This document shows, in pieces, positions 486 to 20,118 of a stretch of DNA of 26,312 nucleotides (within the stretch, counting starts at the first letter, position 1; every line of letters begins with the position of its first letter). Under the pieces are notes generated by a model. The model was not told where the DNA came from and did not search any database. It saw only the letters and a list, made by a program, of their open reading frames with translations. The translations under genes and the position numbers were made by a program. The stretch lies in IMG/VR virus record IMGVR_UViG_3300009515_000021, positions 1 to 26,312 of that record; one strand, written 5' to 3'. This DNA is from a virus.

Positions 486-3008
486 ATGGGATTTTTCGAC
501 AATTTCAGTTTTAATTTCAGTTTTGGCTTTGGCAACAAGAGCCAATCCGTTGGTGCACCAACCACGGAAGTGCCGGAAACTCAATTTACCAATGAGGAGG
601 TTAAAATACAAACTGAGGCCATTTACAATTATTTAAAGGAGCAAGATGCCGTAAAAAACACGGTTGATGCTAGTACTATTGATGTGCCTGCGGAGGGTGG
701 CCGTTCCTCAATTAACAACCAACGTAGCTTAGTGCCCAATGCCTTTACCCCGGCCACTACTGACTTCCCACTTACGGCTTTACCAGTACTAGAGAGCCTG
801 GCTATGTGGAACCGCCATATAAGCTATGCGGTTGATAACATTGAGAATTTAGCCAATACTGACTTTGAAATTGAGTTTGATGAAACGATAAGCGAGGAAC
901 GGGCTATGCAGTTGAAAAAGCACCTAATGTCAAGCCTCAATAAATGGTATGGCTTTAGTGTTGGTGCTAATTCGCTTATAAACGACCTGCTTAGGCAACT
1001 GGCCATATATGGTGCTATTAGTGCTGAACGTGAGCCGAATGAAAACCTACGGGAGATTAAGGCCATACACTTAATACCTAACCATGAGATTGAGTTTGCT
1101 TACAAACAAGATGAGGATGTTTATATACCGTTACAAAAAATACGTGCCCTGGGCAATGTAATTATTGACCAAACACAGTTCCCAGGCTATAAGGTTCTTA
1201 ACACCGAGACATATAAGTACATTGCCATGCGTAGGTTCCGCCAAGAACCATACGGCATACCAGGCTTTTTGTCCGCAATACAAGATATTATTATTGAAAA
1301 TGATATGATTAAAGGCTTCCAGGAAATGATGAAGCGCCTGGGTATGTTAGGTTTTTTAGCCATCCTTGTTGATATGCCTGCAAAGGATACGGCCCAGGGT
1401 GAAAGCGATAGCGCCTACCGTACACGTTTGCAGGAGTATTTAAAGCTTAACCACGAAAGGGCTAAGGATGGTTTTAGCCGTGGTATGACTGTAGGCTATA
1501 AGGGTAAGCATGAATTTGAGGTTGCCGGCAATACTATGAATGCCCAAGGTGCTGAGAAGCTAATGGACATTGTAAAGTCTCTTGTGTTTGCTGGGGTTAA
1601 GCAGGACCCTAATATGTTGGGCGAGAACAAGGCCACTACCGAAACTTTTGGCAGGGTTATACTTGCTAAGATGCTTACCCAAACCAAGAATTTCCAAAAT
1701 GCTGTTAAGGCTTTCTTAGAGGATACGTTTGCATTGGAGCTACGCTTAGGCTTTAGGTACACCGGTACGGTTACCGTTAAATTTACAAAGCCATTGGTGG
1801 GTGACCAAAAGCGTGAGCAGGAAACTTGGGAAAAGAAAATTGCCAACAACATTAACCTTTATAACCAAGGCTTGATTAGTCAGGAGGAATTGGCTGAGCG
1901 TTTAGATATTGATGAGCCTGATTTACCGGTACCGCGTGTAACTGCTAATGCCGGTGGTGGCGGTGGTGGTGATGAGCGTGAGGTTGAAACCACGGAAGAA
2001 GCGGAGAACCAAAGGGCCCAGGAGGCTTTAAAGAATGTAGGCTTTGGGACGCGCACTTTTGTATATGAGTGCCCGGATGGCTGTGCACATGAGCACCCCA
2101 GCTTTGTAAACGAGTTCCAGGACAATCGCATTGAGCGTATTATAAATGATTACAATAGTGAGGTTAACCGCAAATATAGCGTTGCTATTGAAAGGGCGTT
2201 ACCCGGTATGCGTAGGGCTATTGCTGCGCTACCGGAGAATGCCTCACAGCAACGGATTGAGAACATAGTGGTATTCTACCTTATCAAAGATTGGGATAAA
2301 AACTTTACTAAGCGCATTGATACTGATATACGCAAGAACGTAAAGGAGGCATACAATATATATAGGAAAGACAAAAAGGTTTTCCAGGATGCCGAGGGCT
2401 TTGGCAAATCAACACAAAAGCTGTTTACCATACCGGAGGCTAGTTTGGACCTATTGGACTTTAGAACCATTGAGTATTTGCAGGACCTTGATAGGGTGTT
2501 CCTCGGTAAGTTTATTACCGACCCGGATACAATGACACGGGTAACCAGGTTTATTGAGGAGGCTTATGTTAGTGATAACAGCCCATTGAGTAGCCCGGAG
2601 AACTTGAATAAGTTTATGGAGGATTTTGGCGAGTTGGTTAATAATGAGAGTTGGAAGGCAAGGCGTATTATTGAGACGACTATTAATAAGGCTAGGAATT
2701 ATGCCAATGTAATGTACATCAACCAAGCCGAGATTAAAAAGTTTGAGGTGGTTGAGGTGGTGGACCAGCTTACGTGCCAATGGTGCGCATATATGGATGG
2801 CCAGGAATTAGAGGTTGTTACGGAGGTTGAGAAGATAAAGGACCTTAACACGGGAGAGATTACAGATATTGCAAGTAAGGCACCTTTTGCAACAAGTATA
2901 CCTATTGAGCAATTTGAGGCTATGGATGCCCAGGCTATACAAGCGGCCGGCATAGGCACGCCTCCAAATCATTGTCATTGTAGGGGTCGTATTGTGGCTG
3001 TAATATGA
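486..3008 (+). CDS. Portal protein fused to a Mu F/SPP1 gp7-type head morphogenesis domain
   Basis: 840 residues. Residues about 60-485 look like a phage portal, the dodecameric ring at the packaging vertex, with a long helical region including DIIIENDMIKGFQEMMKRLG. A run of six glycines (490-495) with acidic residues after it marks a linker. The remainder resembles the Mu gpF/SPP1 gp7 minor head protein family: its C-terminus carries C764-x2-C767 in TCQWCAYMDG and the H829-C830-H831-C832 cluster, matching that family's usual Cys/His ending. A further C529-x3-C533-x-H535-x-H537 cluster just after the linker could bind metal. Portal and MuF proteins are usually separate neighbouring genes. It is the first gene of the head operon, and its TGA overlaps a possible small ORF by ATGA. 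Role is from family resemblance; domain borders are approximate. Confidence 0.87.
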   Translation: MGFFDNFSFNFSFGFGNKSQSVGAPTTEVPETQFTNEEVKIQTEAIYNYLKEQDAVKNTVDASTIDVPAEGGRSSINNQRSLVPNAFTPATTDFPLTALPVLESLAMWNRHISYAVDNIENLANTDFEIEFDETISEERAMQLKKHLMSSLNKWYGFSVGANSLINDLLRQLAIYGAISAEREPNENLREIKAIHLIPNHEIEFAYKQDEDVYIPLQKIRALGNVIIDQTQFPGYKVLNTETYKYIAMRRFRQEPYGIPGFLSAIQDIIIENDMIKGFQEMMKRLGMLGFLAILVDMPAKDTAQGESDSAYRTRLQEYLKLNHERAKDGFSRGMTVGYKGKHEFEVAGNTMNAQGAEKLMDIVKSLVFAGVKQDPNMLGENKATTETFGRVILAKMLTQTKNFQNAVKAFLEDTFALELRLGFRYTGTVTVKFTKPLVGDQKREQETWEKKIANNINLYNQGLISQEELAERLDIDEPDLPVPRVTANAGGGGGGDEREVETTEEAENQRAQEALKNVGFGTRTFVYECPDGCAHEHPSFVNEFQDNRIERIINDYNSEVNRKYSVAIERALPGMRRAIAALPENASQQRIENIVVFYLIKDWDKNFTKRIDTDIRKNVKEAYNIYRKDKKVFQDAEGFGKSTQKLFTIPEASLDLLDFRTIEYLQDLDRVFLGKFITDPDTMTRVTRFIEEAYVSDNSPLSSPENLNKFMEDFGELVNNESWKARRIIETTINKARNYANVMYINQAEIKKFEVVEVVDQLTCQWCAYMDGQELEVVTEVEKIKDLNTGEITDIASKAPFATSIPIEQFEAMDAQAIQAAGIGTPPNHCHCRGRIVAVI

Positions 3009-3146: not shown

Positions 3147-4610
3147 ATGATACTTAAAGGCACGGATAACTTAACGTTGGTACATCAGATACAGGAGAAC
3201 AACAACAAGAGTACTGATTTAGGGGAACACCATGATATGATTTTGGCCAGGCTTAAAAAAGAGCGTGGTTTGGATTTGCAAAGTGCTGATATACCTACTG
3301 TGCCTGATGAGGATGATTTGGTTGAGTTTCCCTTCCGTCAATTAAGTGCAACCATAGTTGGTGCCGGTAGTTGGAAGGCTACGGACTTTAGTAAAGGCAA
3401 TGTACTTAAGAAGTCAATGCCCATGCTAGAGGGTGTGCCTGCTTATAGGAACCACCACACTTTTGTTGGTAATGAGGTTGGGCATATTGGCACACCCACT
3501 TGGAGTAATTCATACACTAATGCCGATGGCAAGAAGATACCGGCAGGTATTGATGCGCCTTTTATTATTGATAAAATATTGGAGCCAAAATTGGTGCGCC
3601 AACTTAGTAGCCCCCGTAGCCCAGTTAAATCATCATCCGTAACGGTGGTGTTCGAGTGGGAGGCCTCACATGACTTTGATAAAGAATGGATGTTTTGGGA
3701 TATGCTTGGCACGTTTGCCGAGGATGGGGAAATGGTTAGACGTATAGTAACCAACATAACGGCTTATTATGAGAGTAGCTTGGTATGGTTGGGTGCTGAC
3801 CCTTTTGCTGGCAAGTTGGATGAGAATGGTGAAGTTGTAGAAATTGACCAAGCAAGCGTTATCGAAAATAGTCGCTCAGGTGAGGAATTTGAGCAATTTT
3901 ATAAAAAACATAAAAAATATTTCATATATTCTTGTTCAGAATCTGAAAAAGACATACTTTTGAAAATGAACAAGGAAGGTGGCCCACAAAGCCACTCAAA
4001 AACCGAAAAACAAACGGCCATGAATAAAAAGCTTCTTGAAAAAATCGCCCAATTAAACAACTGCAAAGTTGATGAGGTTACCGAGGAAATGATTGAAAAG
4101 TTTGATGTTATTGAAACAGATAAGCTTGCAGCTTTAGAGAAGGCGGATAGTGAGGTTAAAACCCTTAAGGCCGATAAAGAAGCTGAGGAAGGTAAGGTTA
4201 AGACGCTTACGGATGAAAAGGCGCAATTGGAGAAGGATAACAAGGAGAATGCTGAAAAGGTTGAGAAACTTGAAAAAGAGGCTAAAGAGAATGAGGCTAA
4301 GATTAAGGCCGGTGAGGCACACCTTAATAGTATGCGTGAGCACACTAAGGAGGTTTACACCAAATTTGCAGGAGATAAGGTTGATGATACCATTGTAAAA
4401 GAAATAGAGGGCAACAACATAGAGGAGCTTGAAGCTAAGCTTAAATTGTTTGGTGCTGAGGCCGTTACCAAATTTGGGGCACATTGTACGACTTGTAATA
4501 GTAGTGAGCATATCTCCTACCGTTCAAGTATTGATAACGGTGGCGGTGTTGGAGATGATGAGGATGAGCCTATGCACATGGGCGAGGCATCACAAATAGG
4601 ACGAAACTAA
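3147..4610 (+). CDS. Prohead protease fused to a coiled-coil scaffold domain
   Basis: 487 residues from ATG 3147. The N-terminal ~240 residues resemble phage prohead (head maturation) proteases: PAYRNHHTFVGNEVGHIGTP holds candidate catalytic His (H103/H104, H113), and a strand with S162-S164 (KSSSVTVVFEW) holds candidate Ser. A low-complexity linker, KKHKKYFIYSCSESEKD, follows. Residues about 292-420 are a long Lys/Glu/Ala coiled coil, as expected of a scaffold that fills the procapsid and is then cleaved. Its place between portal and capsid genes is standard. In-frame TTG 3120 would add nine residues. I preferred ATG 3147 because its A-rich leader matches other genes here. Catalytic residues are inferred from position, not from an alignment. 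Confidence 0.8.
   Translation: MILKGTDNLTLVHQIQENNNKSTDLGEHHDMILARLKKERGLDLQSADIPTVPDEDDLVEFPFRQLSATIVGAGSWKATDFSKGNVLKKSMPMLEGVPAYRNHHTFVGNEVGHIGTPTWSNSYTNADGKKIPAGIDAPFIIDKILEPKLVRQLSSPRSPVKSSSVTVVFEWEASHDFDKEWMFWDMLGTFAEDGEMVRRIVTNITAYYESSLVWLGADPFAGKLDENGEVVEIDQASVIENSRSGEEFEQFYKKHKKYFIYSCSESEKDILLKMNKEGGPQSHSKTEKQTAMNKKLLEKIAQLNNCKVDEVTEEMIEKFDVIETDKLAALEKADSEVKTLKADKEAEEGKVKTLTDEKAQLEKDNKENAEKVEKLEKEAKENEAKIKAGEAHLNSMREHTKEVYTKFAGDKVDDTIVKEIEGNNIEELEAKLKLFGAEAVTKFGAHCTTCNSSEHISYRSSIDNGGGVGDDEDEPMHMGEASQIGRN
3955..3962 (+). promoter_or_regulatory. Internal TAnnTTTG promoter candidate inside the protease-scaffold gene
   Basis: TACTTTTG matches the -7 consensus and is followed three bases later by an in-frame ATG (3966). 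It falls exactly in the linker between protease and scaffold domains, in a stretch more A/T-rich than its surroundings. This fits a promoter for separate scaffold expression or a relic of an old intergenic region. A chance match is possible. Confidence 0.4.
4020..4610 (+). CDS. Possible nested scaffold protein, in frame with the protease-scaffold gene
   Basis: In-frame ATG 4020 starts MNKKLLEKIAQLNN, which reads like a natural scaffold N-terminus. It would give 196 residues that are almost wholly coiled coil plus an acidic tail. The leader before it (AAAAACCGAAAAACAAACGG) is A-rich like the leaders of the decoration and capsid genes, and a promoter-like element lies at 3955-3962. ATG 3966 is an alternative start giving 214 residues. 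Producing the scaffold alone from a start inside the protease gene is established for lambda C/Nu3. Here it is an inference. Confidence 0.45.
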   Translation: MNKKLLEKIAQLNNCKVDEVTEEMIEKFDVIETDKLAALEKADSEVKTLKADKEAEEGKVKTLTDEKAQLEKDNKENAEKVEKLEKEAKENEAKIKAGEAHLNSMREHTKEVYTKFAGDKVDDTIVKEIEGNNIEELEAKLKLFGAEAVTKFGAHCTTCNSSEHISYRSSIDNGGGVGDDEDEPMHMGEASQIGRN

Positions 4611-4643: not shown

Positions 4644-5090
4644 ATGGGATTAGGTACAGGAACAGTACAAGGAAGGCAAACAACTCTTTCTAAGCATTTT
4701 GACCAAGCTGGAATCCGCCTTTCAATGAATAATGGCGAAGGTGCTGAAATAAAAGCAGGTACCGAGGTTAACCTTACAGGAGATAATGAGGTAAGCATCC
4801 GTGATACTGCTACTGATAGACCTTTTGGTGTTTGTGAAATAGGTGGTGCAGATGGAGAGAAGGTAACTGTACATGTACATGGACAGCGTACTTTGCAGGT
4901 AGTTGCTACCGGTGGAGCTTTTACGGCTGGGGATTTAGTTAAATATACCGGCACACATGATGCTAATGGTGTACCTAATTATGTTGCCGCTGTGGCTTCT
5001 GATTTAATTACTGCTCTTGTAATAAAGGGTGCAGCGCAGGATGCGGTAGCAGAGGTTGTAATTATGAACCAATATGTAGTTGCTCCATAA
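4644..5090 (+). CDS. Capsid decoration (cement) protein, DUF2190-like
   Basis: 148 residues, Gly/Thr/Val-rich and likely all beta. The segment AEIKAGTEVNLTGDNEVSIR, followed by PFGVCEIGGADGEKVTVHV and GGAFTAGDLVKYTG, has the look of the DUF2190/capsid cement family, small proteins that bind the outer capsid surface or stabilise it. Its position directly before the major capsid gene supports that role. The leader (TTAACTAAAGATACACGAAC) is A-rich without Shine-Dalgarno, as expected for strong Bacteroidota starts. The 3' end lies inside an intrinsic terminator whose loop contains the stop codon. Family assignment is by resemblance only. Confidence 0.72.
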   Translation: MGLGTGTVQGRQTTLSKHFDQAGIRLSMNNGEGAEIKAGTEVNLTGDNEVSIRDTATDRPFGVCEIGGADGEKVTVHVHGQRTLQVVATGGAFTAGDLVKYTGTHDANGVPNYVAAVASDLITALVIKGAAQDAVAEVVIMNQYVVAP

Positions 5091-5108
5091 GGGTAGCTAC
5101 TTTTTTTT
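5076..5108 (+). terminator. Intrinsic terminator overlapping the decoration gene stop
   Basis: Arms 5076-5085 (GTAGTTGCTC) and 5091-5100 (GGGTAGCTAC) pair over 10 positions with three G-U pairs. The five-base loop (CATAA) contains the stop codon, and eight T follow at 5101-5108. It sits between decoration and capsid genes, where no clear TAnnTTTG promoter follows, so it may be a partial terminator that sets expression ratios. Confidence 0.7.
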
Positions 5109-5145
5109 AAATAGAAAAATTTTATAGTATAAATATACCGAGAAA

Positions 5146-6429
5146 ATGGCAGTATTAGAATTATCCAAATTACGTGAGCACAATCAAAGTCTAAGCAACA
5201 AAAAGACTGGAACTATTAGCAAGCGTGCTGATATTAAGGATACTATTGAGGCTAACTTGAAAAAGTTTGCCAAAGAGGTTGGTGAAACTCGTAAAGGTTT
5301 CAGAGATGCAAACGGAAACGATATTGCACCTTATGATATTGATATTAACGAGGCCAGTAAGCACATGTTTGGTACTGACCTTAATGGGGTGTTGGCGCAA
5401 CTTGGTATTTATACTAAGAGCGATAATGTTTCAGAGGTGTGCCAAAAGCTTGGATATAACAATGTGAATGCTAAGGCCATACAGGACCTTATGATTACAC
5501 AATCTGAGCTTGGCATTGAGACACTTGCTGAGCAAAATACTGACCATAGGTTTTTGTTACCCGAGATGATTATGGCCGCTATCCGTATAGGGTACCAGCA
5601 CAATGCGATGCACATGAATTGGATTGCTGGCACACAGCCTGTGAGACAATTGAAAAAGAACCCAATGCCTCAATTATTAAGAGGTGATGCGGTTAGTGCC
5701 AAAGTAAACGAGGGAGCTCAGTTTCCTTTGGGCTCTGTGAAGTTCGGGCAAAAGTATGTGGATACTTTTAAAATAGGTACAGGAATACAGCTTACCGATG
5801 AGCTTATACTATCGGCCAGCCTGGATATATTCTTCTTGTTTATGCAGGAGGTTGGTAACGATATGCGTATTGGCGCGGATAGTCTTGCAATTGATGTTCT
5901 CATTAATGGTGAGCAAACGGATGGCTCGGAGACTGCACCGGTTGTTGGTACTGATGATGGTACCTCGTTTACCTACAAAGATATTAAGCGTATGTTTACT
6001 CGTATGAGTAGAATGTCACAACCTGCCACCCGTATAATTGCCGGTGAGGAGGATACGATTGATATTACCGGGATTGATAGGTTTGAGGGTTTTAACGGTG
6101 ATACCCGTTTGGCTTCCATTCGTTCAATTGTTGGTGTACCTGATACATTCGACATGGACGTATACCCGTTGCCTACTAACCAAATTATGTTTATTGCGCC
6201 TGACCGTGCGATGATTAAATTGCAGTTTGGTGGCATGAAAACTGAGCGTGATAGAGATATTACCACTCAAAAAGAAATTATGGTAATTAGCGATTACATC
6301 AACTTCGCCATCGTGAAGCGTGATGCAAGGGTTATACTTACCAAGGCGGACACTATTGTTAACTTACCATTCCCTAGCTACATGGATATTGATGCTAGAA
6401 TTGCAGAGACATTTGATAACCTCGATTAA
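5146..6429 (+). CDS. Major capsid protein
   Basis: 427 residues. It is the size expected for an HK97-fold capsid protein and in the expected position after protease/scaffold and decoration genes. The N-terminal ~100 residues are charged and helical, like a delta domain or N-arm removed or reorganised on maturation. The rest is mixed alpha/beta and includes PQLLRGDAVSAKVNEGAQFP, a typical E-loop-type stretch, and a C-terminal segment with FAIVKRDARVIL resembling the closing strand of the capsid A-domain. The A-rich leader has no Shine-Dalgarno. The gene ends with three in-frame stops (TAA TAG TAA) inside a strong hairpin. Assignment rests on context and general features. Confidence 0.85.
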   Translation: MAVLELSKLREHNQSLSNKKTGTISKRADIKDTIEANLKKFAKEVGETRKGFRDANGNDIAPYDIDINEASKHMFGTDLNGVLAQLGIYTKSDNVSEVCQKLGYNNVNAKAIQDLMITQSELGIETLAEQNTDHRFLLPEMIMAAIRIGYQHNAMHMNWIAGTQPVRQLKKNPMPQLLRGDAVSAKVNEGAQFPLGSVKFGQKYVDTFKIGTGIQLTDELILSASLDIFFLFMQEVGNDMRIGADSLAIDVLINGEQTDGSETAPVVGTDDGTSFTYKDIKRMFTRMSRMSQPATRIIAGEEDTIDITGIDRFEGFNGDTRLASIRSIVGVPDTFDMDVYPLPTNQIMFIAPDRAMIKLQFGGMKTERDRDITTQKEIMVISDYINFAIVKRDARVILTKADTIVNLPFPSYMDIDARIAETFDNLD

Positions 6430-7334: not shown

Positions 7335-7367
7335 AAACCCTTAGCTTTCACGGTTAAGGGTTTTTTT
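7335..7367 (+). terminator. Intrinsic terminator ending the head module
   Basis: AAACCCTTA (7335-7343) pairs perfectly with TAAGGGTTT (7355-7363) across an 11-base loop, with T continuing to 7367. The T-run runs directly into the TAACTTTG promoter of the next unit. Confidence 0.85.
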
Positions 7368-7368
7368 A

Positions 7369-7376
7369 TAACTTTG
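7369..7376 (+). promoter_or_regulatory. TAnnTTTG promoter of the connector module
   Basis: TAACTTTG is followed by exactly four bases (AAGT) and then ATG 7381. With the usual start site of this promoter class, the first transcribed base would be at or next to the A of the ATG, so the mRNA is predicted to be leaderless. It overlaps the end of the preceding terminator. Confidence 0.7.
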
Positions 7377-9567: not shown

Positions 9568-9575
9568 TACCTTTG
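9568..9575 (+). promoter_or_regulatory. TAnnTTTG promoter of the fibre cassette
   Basis: TACCTTTG, then four bases (AATT) and ATG 9580: the same spacing as at 7369, 14800 and 20111. No terminator was seen before it. Predicts a leaderless mRNA for the fibre-like gene and the two genes after it. Confidence 0.65.
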
Positions 9576-14608: not shown

Positions 14609-14784
14609 TCGACATTTGGTTCGACCTCTGCTATGCCGGCTTGGGGGGGCTTACATACGAGCATCTTGCCAGGCATGATGTACGTGATATAGATAGATTG
14701 CGGTATCGAATGACTAAGCAAAAGGAATTTGAGGCTAAAGAAATAGAGGAGGCTAAAGAAAAAGCTAGAAATAGAAAGCGGTAA
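13769..14784 (+). CDS. Tail assembly chaperone, -1 frameshift (GT-type) product
   Basis: Reading 273 codons to 14587, slipping back one base at T TTT TTC and continuing in the -1 frame gives 65 more codons (RAFSSNLIDIWFDLCYAGLG through KARNRKR) before TAA 14782-14784: 338 residues in total. The extension has a hydrophobic/aromatic first half and a strongly helical, charged end, as expected of the T part that binds the tape measure. The -1 frame fills nearly the whole gap to the tape measure gene and ends inside the terminator hairpin, which argues that it is coding. Frameshift efficiency cannot be judged from sequence. Confidence 0.72.
14581..14587 (+). promoter_or_regulatory. -1 ribosomal frameshift slippery heptamer
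   Basis: T TTT TTC in the frame of the chaperone gene (GCT TTT TTC GTG). Both tRNAs can re-pair after a one-base backward slip. It lies seven codons before the zero-frame stop. No clear stimulatory pseudoknot was found by eye downstream. Confidence 0.72.
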
Positions 14785-14800
14785 ACCACCGCTTTTTTTT
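14775..14800 (+). terminator. Intrinsic terminator before the tape measure gene
   Basis: AAAGCGGT (14775-14782) pairs perfectly with ACCGCTTT (14788-14795) across a five-base loop, followed by T to 14800. The stop codon of the frameshift product begins in the hairpin (14782-14784), and the last T is the first base of the next promoter. Confidence 0.85.
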
Positions 14801-14807
14801 ATCTTTG
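14800..14807 (+). promoter_or_regulatory. TAnnTTTG promoter of the tape measure/baseplate unit
   Basis: TATCTTTG shares its first T with the preceding terminator's T-run. Four bases (ACGT) separate it from ATG 14812, predicting a leaderless mRNA for the tape measure gene and the coupled baseplate genes. Confidence 0.7.
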
Positions 14808-20110: not shown

Positions 20111-20118
20111 TATCTTTG
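20111..20118 (+). promoter_or_regulatory. TAnnTTTG promoter of the wedge/fibre unit
   Basis: TATCTTTG, four bases (AAAC), then ATG 20123. No terminator precedes it, so readthrough from the hub genes probably adds to this start. Same leaderless geometry as the other three. Confidence 0.65.

Follow-up and report, generated by a model that had tools for sequence, protein, structure and literature searches.

A probable nested scaffold and a candidate internal promoter in the protease-scaffold gene of a tailed-phage family

The protease-scaffold gene and its neighbours

The window analyzed here is a 26,312-base IMG/VR virus record, taken over its whole length. Its head genes run in the order portal with a Mu-F-like C-terminus (486-3008), protease-scaffold (3147-4610), cement (4644-5090), and major capsid protein (5146-6429). 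The reading frame of the protease-scaffold gene is open from 3120, and ATG 3147 was picked as the gene start by alignment with relatives. The 840-aa ORF at 486-3008 combines a portal protein (phrog_3753) at residues 69-524 with a Mu-F-like minor head domain at about 705-840. The features discussed below are as follows.

3147-4610, + strand: protease-scaffold gene, 487 aa and 54.6 kDa; phrog_8158, head maturation protease, E 8e-30
3279-3851, + strand: protease domain, residues 45-235 of 487, modelled gp21/assemblin fold, with invariant His103, Ser162, and Ser164
3864-4019, + strand: disordered A/T-rich linker, residues 240-291, with low pLDDT over most of 240-290
3932-3934, + strand: TTG, candidate for a weak -33 element; the -7 box follows after a spacing of 20 nt
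3955-3962, + strand: TACTTTTG, candidate Bacteroidota sigma-A -7 box, fitting TAHHTTTG; predicted transcription start 3967-3968
3966-3968, + strand: in-frame ATG, probably not a start, unconserved in alignments
4005-4019, + strand: A-rich leader, with A at -14 to -10 and at -6 of ATG 4020
4020-4022, + strand: predicted internal start codon of the nested scaffold, conserved across families
4020-4610, + strand: predicted nested scaffold, 196 aa, 21.8 kDa, pI 4.85, coiled coil, with a C-terminal CxxC at 4485-4496
4644-5090, + strand: cement/decoration-like protein gene (Phage_cement_2), downstream of the protease-scaffold gene
5076-5100, + strand: terminator-like hairpin with a T8 tail, between the cement and major capsid genes
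5146-6429, + strand: major capsid protein gene, given for context

The gene at 4644-5090 carries two labels, head scaffolding protein in PHROG (phrog_673, E 1e-6) and cement protein in Pfam (Phage_cement_2). The cement identity fits better since the predicted nested scaffold sits upstream.

A preliminary description of this DNA had pointed to a promoter-like site and two possible internal starts within the gene. TACTTTTG is indeed found at 3955-3962, ATG 3966 and ATG 4020 are both in frame with the 3120/3147-4610 ORF, ATG 4020 opens the peptide MNKKLLEKIAQ, and the product sizes of 196 and 214 residues given there are correct. The A-rich leader reported before ATG 4020 contains an A-run at 4006-4010, which corresponds to -14 to -10 relative to that codon. 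The linker had also been called richer in A/T than its flanks and unusually rich in Lys, Tyr, and Ser. Its GC content is 0.28-0.29 at 3850-3999, whereas it is 0.42-0.48 in the upstream part and, past ~4150, mostly 0.41-0.44, and the segment EEFEQFYKKHKKYFIYSCSESEKD has the claimed K/Y/S-rich composition.

An AlphaFold2 model of the 487-aa protein, built from 24 relatives, contains a confident domain at about residues 50-230 (mostly 82-97 pLDDT), followed by a region in which most of 240-290 is predicted to be disordered. The scaffold part begins at about 286, is helical, and includes a single long helix at 324-408. The box and ATG 3966 lie inside the disordered linker, and ATG 4020 lies at its end. 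Re-alignment of the protease domain (VIA) gave T4 gp21 as the best match, with Z 9.7 over 125 residues, and herpesvirus proteases (HSV-2, VZV, PRV, HCMV) at Z 7-9.3, including the VZV protease at Z 9.3 and PRV pUL26N at Z 8.9; the matches to gp21, VZV, and PRV all fall on residues ~53-237. Plain Foldseek of the full-length 487-aa model against the PDB gave no match with E below 0.001, so the PDB fold match depends on the second aligner. Structural neighbours of the model in BFVD include prohead serine proteases. His103, Ser162, Ser164, and His175 are invariant in the family alignment and are candidate catalytic residues. The phrog_8158 profile covers window residues 36-457 (E 8e-30) and is matched by 24/24 relatives, while Pfam protease models (S78, DUF2213, and others) matched none of the 24 members at E 0.01.

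Fusion and the internal start codon across relatives

Relatives were gathered in several rounds of viral scans, to which two phage records and one genome contig were added. Scanning viral contigs with the window protein as a single query returned no relative, and alignment queries were required. The first set consisted of 24 families, with a median pairwise identity of 30% in a 23-family alignment, and a blind set of 41 non-redundant new families was fetched without a prior look. The internal Met was counted over 65 non-redundant full-length members, one of which is the window.

Protease and scaffold are fused in all ~80 distinct relatives examined, which suggests that the fusion is old. The distant relatives L019 and L020 are also fused, but they have neither the linker nor the internal Met. 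The preliminary description had raised the possibility that separate protease and scaffold genes were joined, with the old intergenic promoter and start kept as coding sequence, and had proposed looking for relatives in which the genes are still separate. No split genes were found among the relatives' loci searched, which counts against a recent fusion of this kind. The signals do not behave as relics either, since they are under selection across ~30% identity, with the Met kept at that distance and selection visible at a synonymous site. A possible trace of stand-alone scaffolds is phrog_8730, a 191-residue PHROG profile with no assigned function, which has a nearly collinear match to the C-terminal half of the scaffold (window 4287-4520) and might be a candidate stand-alone scaffold family; tblastn of four scaffold queries in phages returned no stand-alone scaffolds. 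Taking these points together, we regard a recent fusion as highly improbable.

Several members of the family depart from the common gene structure. In L003, a gut phage record marked UNVERIFIED (MT835790), the scaffold part of the gene at 4767-6296 is interrupted by an in-frame stop, at a position where the frame stays open in the close relatives L002, L016, and L021. In L035 (3440-3460) and L018 (near 4130) the frame of the protease-scaffold gene is broken as compared with the near-identical L030 and L006; these breaks are variants or assembly errors. L068 (2779-4740) carries an extra linker segment that looks helix-turn-helix-like by eye and has no clear internal Met.

A Met is found at the position of window ATG 4020 in 63/65 non-redundant full-length members, many of them only ~30% identical. 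It is present in 24/24 families of the first set, in L026 only after a three-codon shift at an alignment gap, and in 39/41 families of the blind set, where it is displaced by two codons in the alignment of some families and where L064 and L068 are the exceptions. A last group of relatives, inspected by eye only, gave the same picture. The linker residues preceding this Met are unconserved.

The DNA before the Met is distinctive as well. The A content at -15 to -1 is 0.57, versus 0.32 ahead of the other Met codons that lie in frame in these genes (p 2e-13), a difference that was repeated in the blind set (0.56 versus 0.33, p 1e-19), and the A profile peaks at -14 to -11, as it does at other gene starts on the same contigs. 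In F. johnsoniae, A is over-represented at -14 to -11 of starts, and A at -13, -12, -6, and -3 promotes initiation where no Shine-Dalgarno sequence is present (PMC6847099). Position -13 is a third codon position and can therefore be tested free of the protein. At this synonymous site the frequency of A is 0.59, versus 0.36 expected from codon usage (z 4.8, 63 families), and in the window's clade it is 0.79 versus 0.47. The base at -3 is A in 39/63 families and G in 21/63, so that A or G is found in 60/63. The residues following the Met (N/D/K/E, then K/E) are like those of an N-terminus, and folding of the leader RNA is unremarkable (z -0.8).

A different explanation for the conservation of this Met would be that it is kept for protein reasons, as a helix cap or near a release site, with no second start, and that self-cleavage in the linker releases the scaffold, as it does in P2 gpO. 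In the model a helix starts at residue 286, six residues ahead of the Met, and the recurring linker peptide h-x-L-S-K could conceivably be a cleavage site. Structure would not explain, however, why a near-invariant Met stands beside unconserved linker residues, why its DNA context is A-rich with an excess of A at synonymous -13, or why N-terminus-like residues follow it, and we consider this explanation improbable. From the comparison of the sequences, we conclude that selection acts at the ATG 4020 site as a translation start. Since the Met is conserved, its context is A-rich with the -13 excess, and ATG 3966 is unconserved, the nested 196-aa scaffold very probably starts at ATG 4020. The nested scaffold resembling lambda C/Nu3 that had been proposed earlier is in this way strongly upheld for ATG 4020, but not for ATG 3966, the other start put forward with it. 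The case for the nested scaffold comes from the relatives, and the features of the window alone are unremarkable.

The candidate promoter in the linker

TACTTTTG at 3955-3962, together with TTG at 3932-3934 and a spacing of 20, matches the Bacteroidota sigma-A promoter, which has a -7 box TAHHTTTG and a weak -33 TTG/TTTG (PMC6847099). A sigma-70 promoter scan was rejected as addressing the wrong promoter type for these signals. The box by itself is not above chance, since TAnnTTTG is common in the window (42 occurrences versus 33 +/- 6 expected); what is above chance is the place of the box and its comparative conservation. In the first set, 11/24 families have TAnnTTTG in the 90 nt preceding the internal ATG, versus 3.0 +/- 1.2 in synonymous resampling, and each of the remaining 90-nt bins of the gene has it in 0-2/24. 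No word of the same form is more enriched, and this one is absent from the reverse strand.

The distribution of the box differs between clades. It is present in 12/28 families of the window's clade, versus 3.2 +/- 1.3 in synonymous resampling (0/2000), and in 2/35 of the sister clade (H-type), where the null is 0.6. The blind set, which belongs mostly to the sister clade, has the box in 3/39 families (0.9 expected), and the blind part of the window's clade has it in 2/9 (null 0.6, P about 0.05). The two-part pattern TTG-N18..20-TAnnTTTG occurs in 6/28 of the window's clade, versus 0.41 expected, and nowhere else in 43 kb of these genes. The peptide h-x-L is encoded as TAnnTTTG in 9/15 cases in linkers versus 16/837 elsewhere (p 1.5e-11). 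On the tree, the distribution of the box corresponds to at least 7 gains or losses, and among the nearest relatives of the window it is found in L023 and L026 only, with none in L022, L024, L004, and L005. The box overlaps the peptide h-x-L-S-K, and as this peptide is retained in families without the box, part of the recurrence may be protein constraint.

These observations can be set against a reading in which the nested scaffold is made only by internal initiation on the full-length mRNA, in the mode of lambda C/Nu3, and TACTTTTG is a chance or peptide-driven match. Such a reading would account for a start conserved in both clades when the box is as a rule absent from the sister clade, for the overlap of the box with a conserved peptide, and for the chance frequency of TAnnTTTG in the window. 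It does not account for the fact that the window's clade is enriched, at the codon level, for the box at this single place, nor for the -33-like TTG that accompanies half of these boxes, and we give it an appreciable but minority share of the probability. An internal promoter is likely, yet less certain than the start, since the box is enriched in the window's clade and not in the sister clade. The promoter-like site of the preliminary description thus gains moderate support within the window's clade, which does not extend to the sister clade. The box is a clade-level feature that probably works in the window, but the design does not include it throughout the family; judging from these patterns, the chance that the promoter works in this phage lies between even and likely.

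Published spacings place the box at -12 to -5 of the transcription start (PMC9723704) or leave a gap of 4-5 nt from the box to the transcription start (PMC6847099), and they therefore predict a 5' end at 3967-3968. Such a 5' end would break ATG 3966 and leave a leader of 52-53 nt to ATG 4020. The nested product could instead be imagined to start at ATG 3966 (214 aa), on a near-leaderless mRNA from the box, given a gap of only 3 nt between box and ATG and given that four window genes with a box exactly 12 nt before their ATG would be leaderless. The codon is unconserved in alignments, however, and the published 4-5 nt spacing puts the 5' end inside the ATG, so that we find a start at ATG 3966 barely credible.

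The four start-proximal boxes are at 7369-7376, 9568-9575, 14800-14807, and 20111-20118, before ATGs 7381, 9580, 14812, and 20123, and it is the published box-to-start spacing that would make the mRNAs of these genes leaderless. Among 123 other gene starts of the window and its relatives, the box is at -12 in five and at -11 in two. At 7340-7376 and 14780-14807, inverted repeats with T-runs, recognized by eye, lie directly before two of the start-proximal boxes and look like intrinsic terminators, as if a terminator had been joined to the next promoter.

The cement gene has no TAnnTTTG before its start in the window and has its own box in only 2/21 loci; it is probably carried on the same internal transcript as the scaffold. 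A Bacteroidota host is suggested for this phage, as judged from the start and promoter signals only.

Known systems and a proposed mechanism

In lambda, the capsid protease and scaffold are encoded in one reading frame and the scaffold alone is produced from an internal start, and the gene described here shares with it the common frame and, by prediction, the scaffold-only product from an internal start. Lambda gpC is a ClpP/SppA-like peptidase, whereas the protease modelled here is T4 gp21/assemblin-like. The systems also differ in the start context, which here is A-rich, of Bacteroidota type, and without a Shine-Dalgarno sequence, and in the internal promoter, which here is likely in one clade. 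The overlap of the lambda protease and scaffold genes C and Nu3 is reported in a passage of PMC8508860 that cites Shaw and Murialdo 1980. In the herpesvirus UL26/UL26.5 pair, the in-frame scaffold gene has a promoter that lies within the protease coding sequence, and the transcripts are 3'-coterminal (PMC2949831). An assemblin-fold protease, a linker, and a scaffold in one ORF are common to that pair and to the present gene, but the latter is a tailed-phage gene with a bacterial promoter as candidate, and the likeness shown is one of fold only.

Protease-scaffold fusions or nested scaffolds are also present in phage Mu I/Z, P2 gpO, and T4 gp21, and T4 gp21 is the best fold match to the protease domain here (Z 9.7). 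Sequence similarity of the window protein to Mu I/Z, P2 gpO, and T4 gp21 was below threshold, and we know of no internal Bacteroidota-type promoter in these three systems. A literature search for nested scaffolds in Bacteroidota phages found no paper on them, which is not proof of absence. Nested protease/scaffold genes are thus already known from lambda C/Nu3 and from UL26/UL26.5, the latter with an internal promoter; the new elements are the family, a start context of Bacteroidota type that lies within a coding sequence, and a likely promoter inside the gene.

The fused architecture, the protease fold, the conserved Met, the A-rich context with its synonymous-site signal, and the clade-level enrichment of the box are read from sequence, and from this anatomy and from lambda, Mu, P2, and the herpesviruses we infer the actual initiation, promoter use, stoichiometry, and proteolysis. 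We consider it likely that one reading frame gives rise to two proteins, the 487-aa fusion and the 196-aa scaffold, with an internal promoter probable in this phage. Initiation at ATG 3147 would yield the protease joined to the scaffold through the disordered linker and initiation at ATG 4020 the scaffold alone, with ribosomes locating ATG 4020 by the Bacteroidota A-rich context and not by Shine-Dalgarno pairing. The sigma-A type promoter at TACTTTTG (3955-3962) would probably yield extra mRNA for scaffold and cement, which may end at the T-run hairpin at 5076-5100, and would raise both products over the protease. Many free scaffolds would then build the prohead together with few protease-scaffold fusions, which would enter it by the shared scaffold part, bringing the protease that would afterwards digest the scaffold. 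We propose only tentatively, at a little under even confidence, that this is a UL26/UL26.5-like unit in a tailed-phage family, in which a host-type promoter and start lie inside an assemblin-fold protease gene and the nested transcript for scaffold (and cement) sets the protease-to-scaffold stoichiometry.

A plain ORF reading of this locus gives one protease gene and misses the scaffold, which is probably among the most abundant morphogenetic proteins. With these relatives, nested protease/scaffold coding would also be present in a large uncultivated family that uses signals of Bacteroidota type, and the scaffold could be located by a rule, as the part that begins at a Met behind an A-rich linker. 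Should the internal promoter be functional, the transcriptional layout would be common to phages and herpesviruses in addition to the protease fold and the scaffold plan, by convergence or descent.

Near the scaffold C-terminus, C456 and C459 of the CxxC (4485-4496) are invariant in the family, and a conserved FRSS-like stretch and an acidic tail come after them. The CxxC may, as a speculation, serve in metal binding and in contact with the capsid protein.
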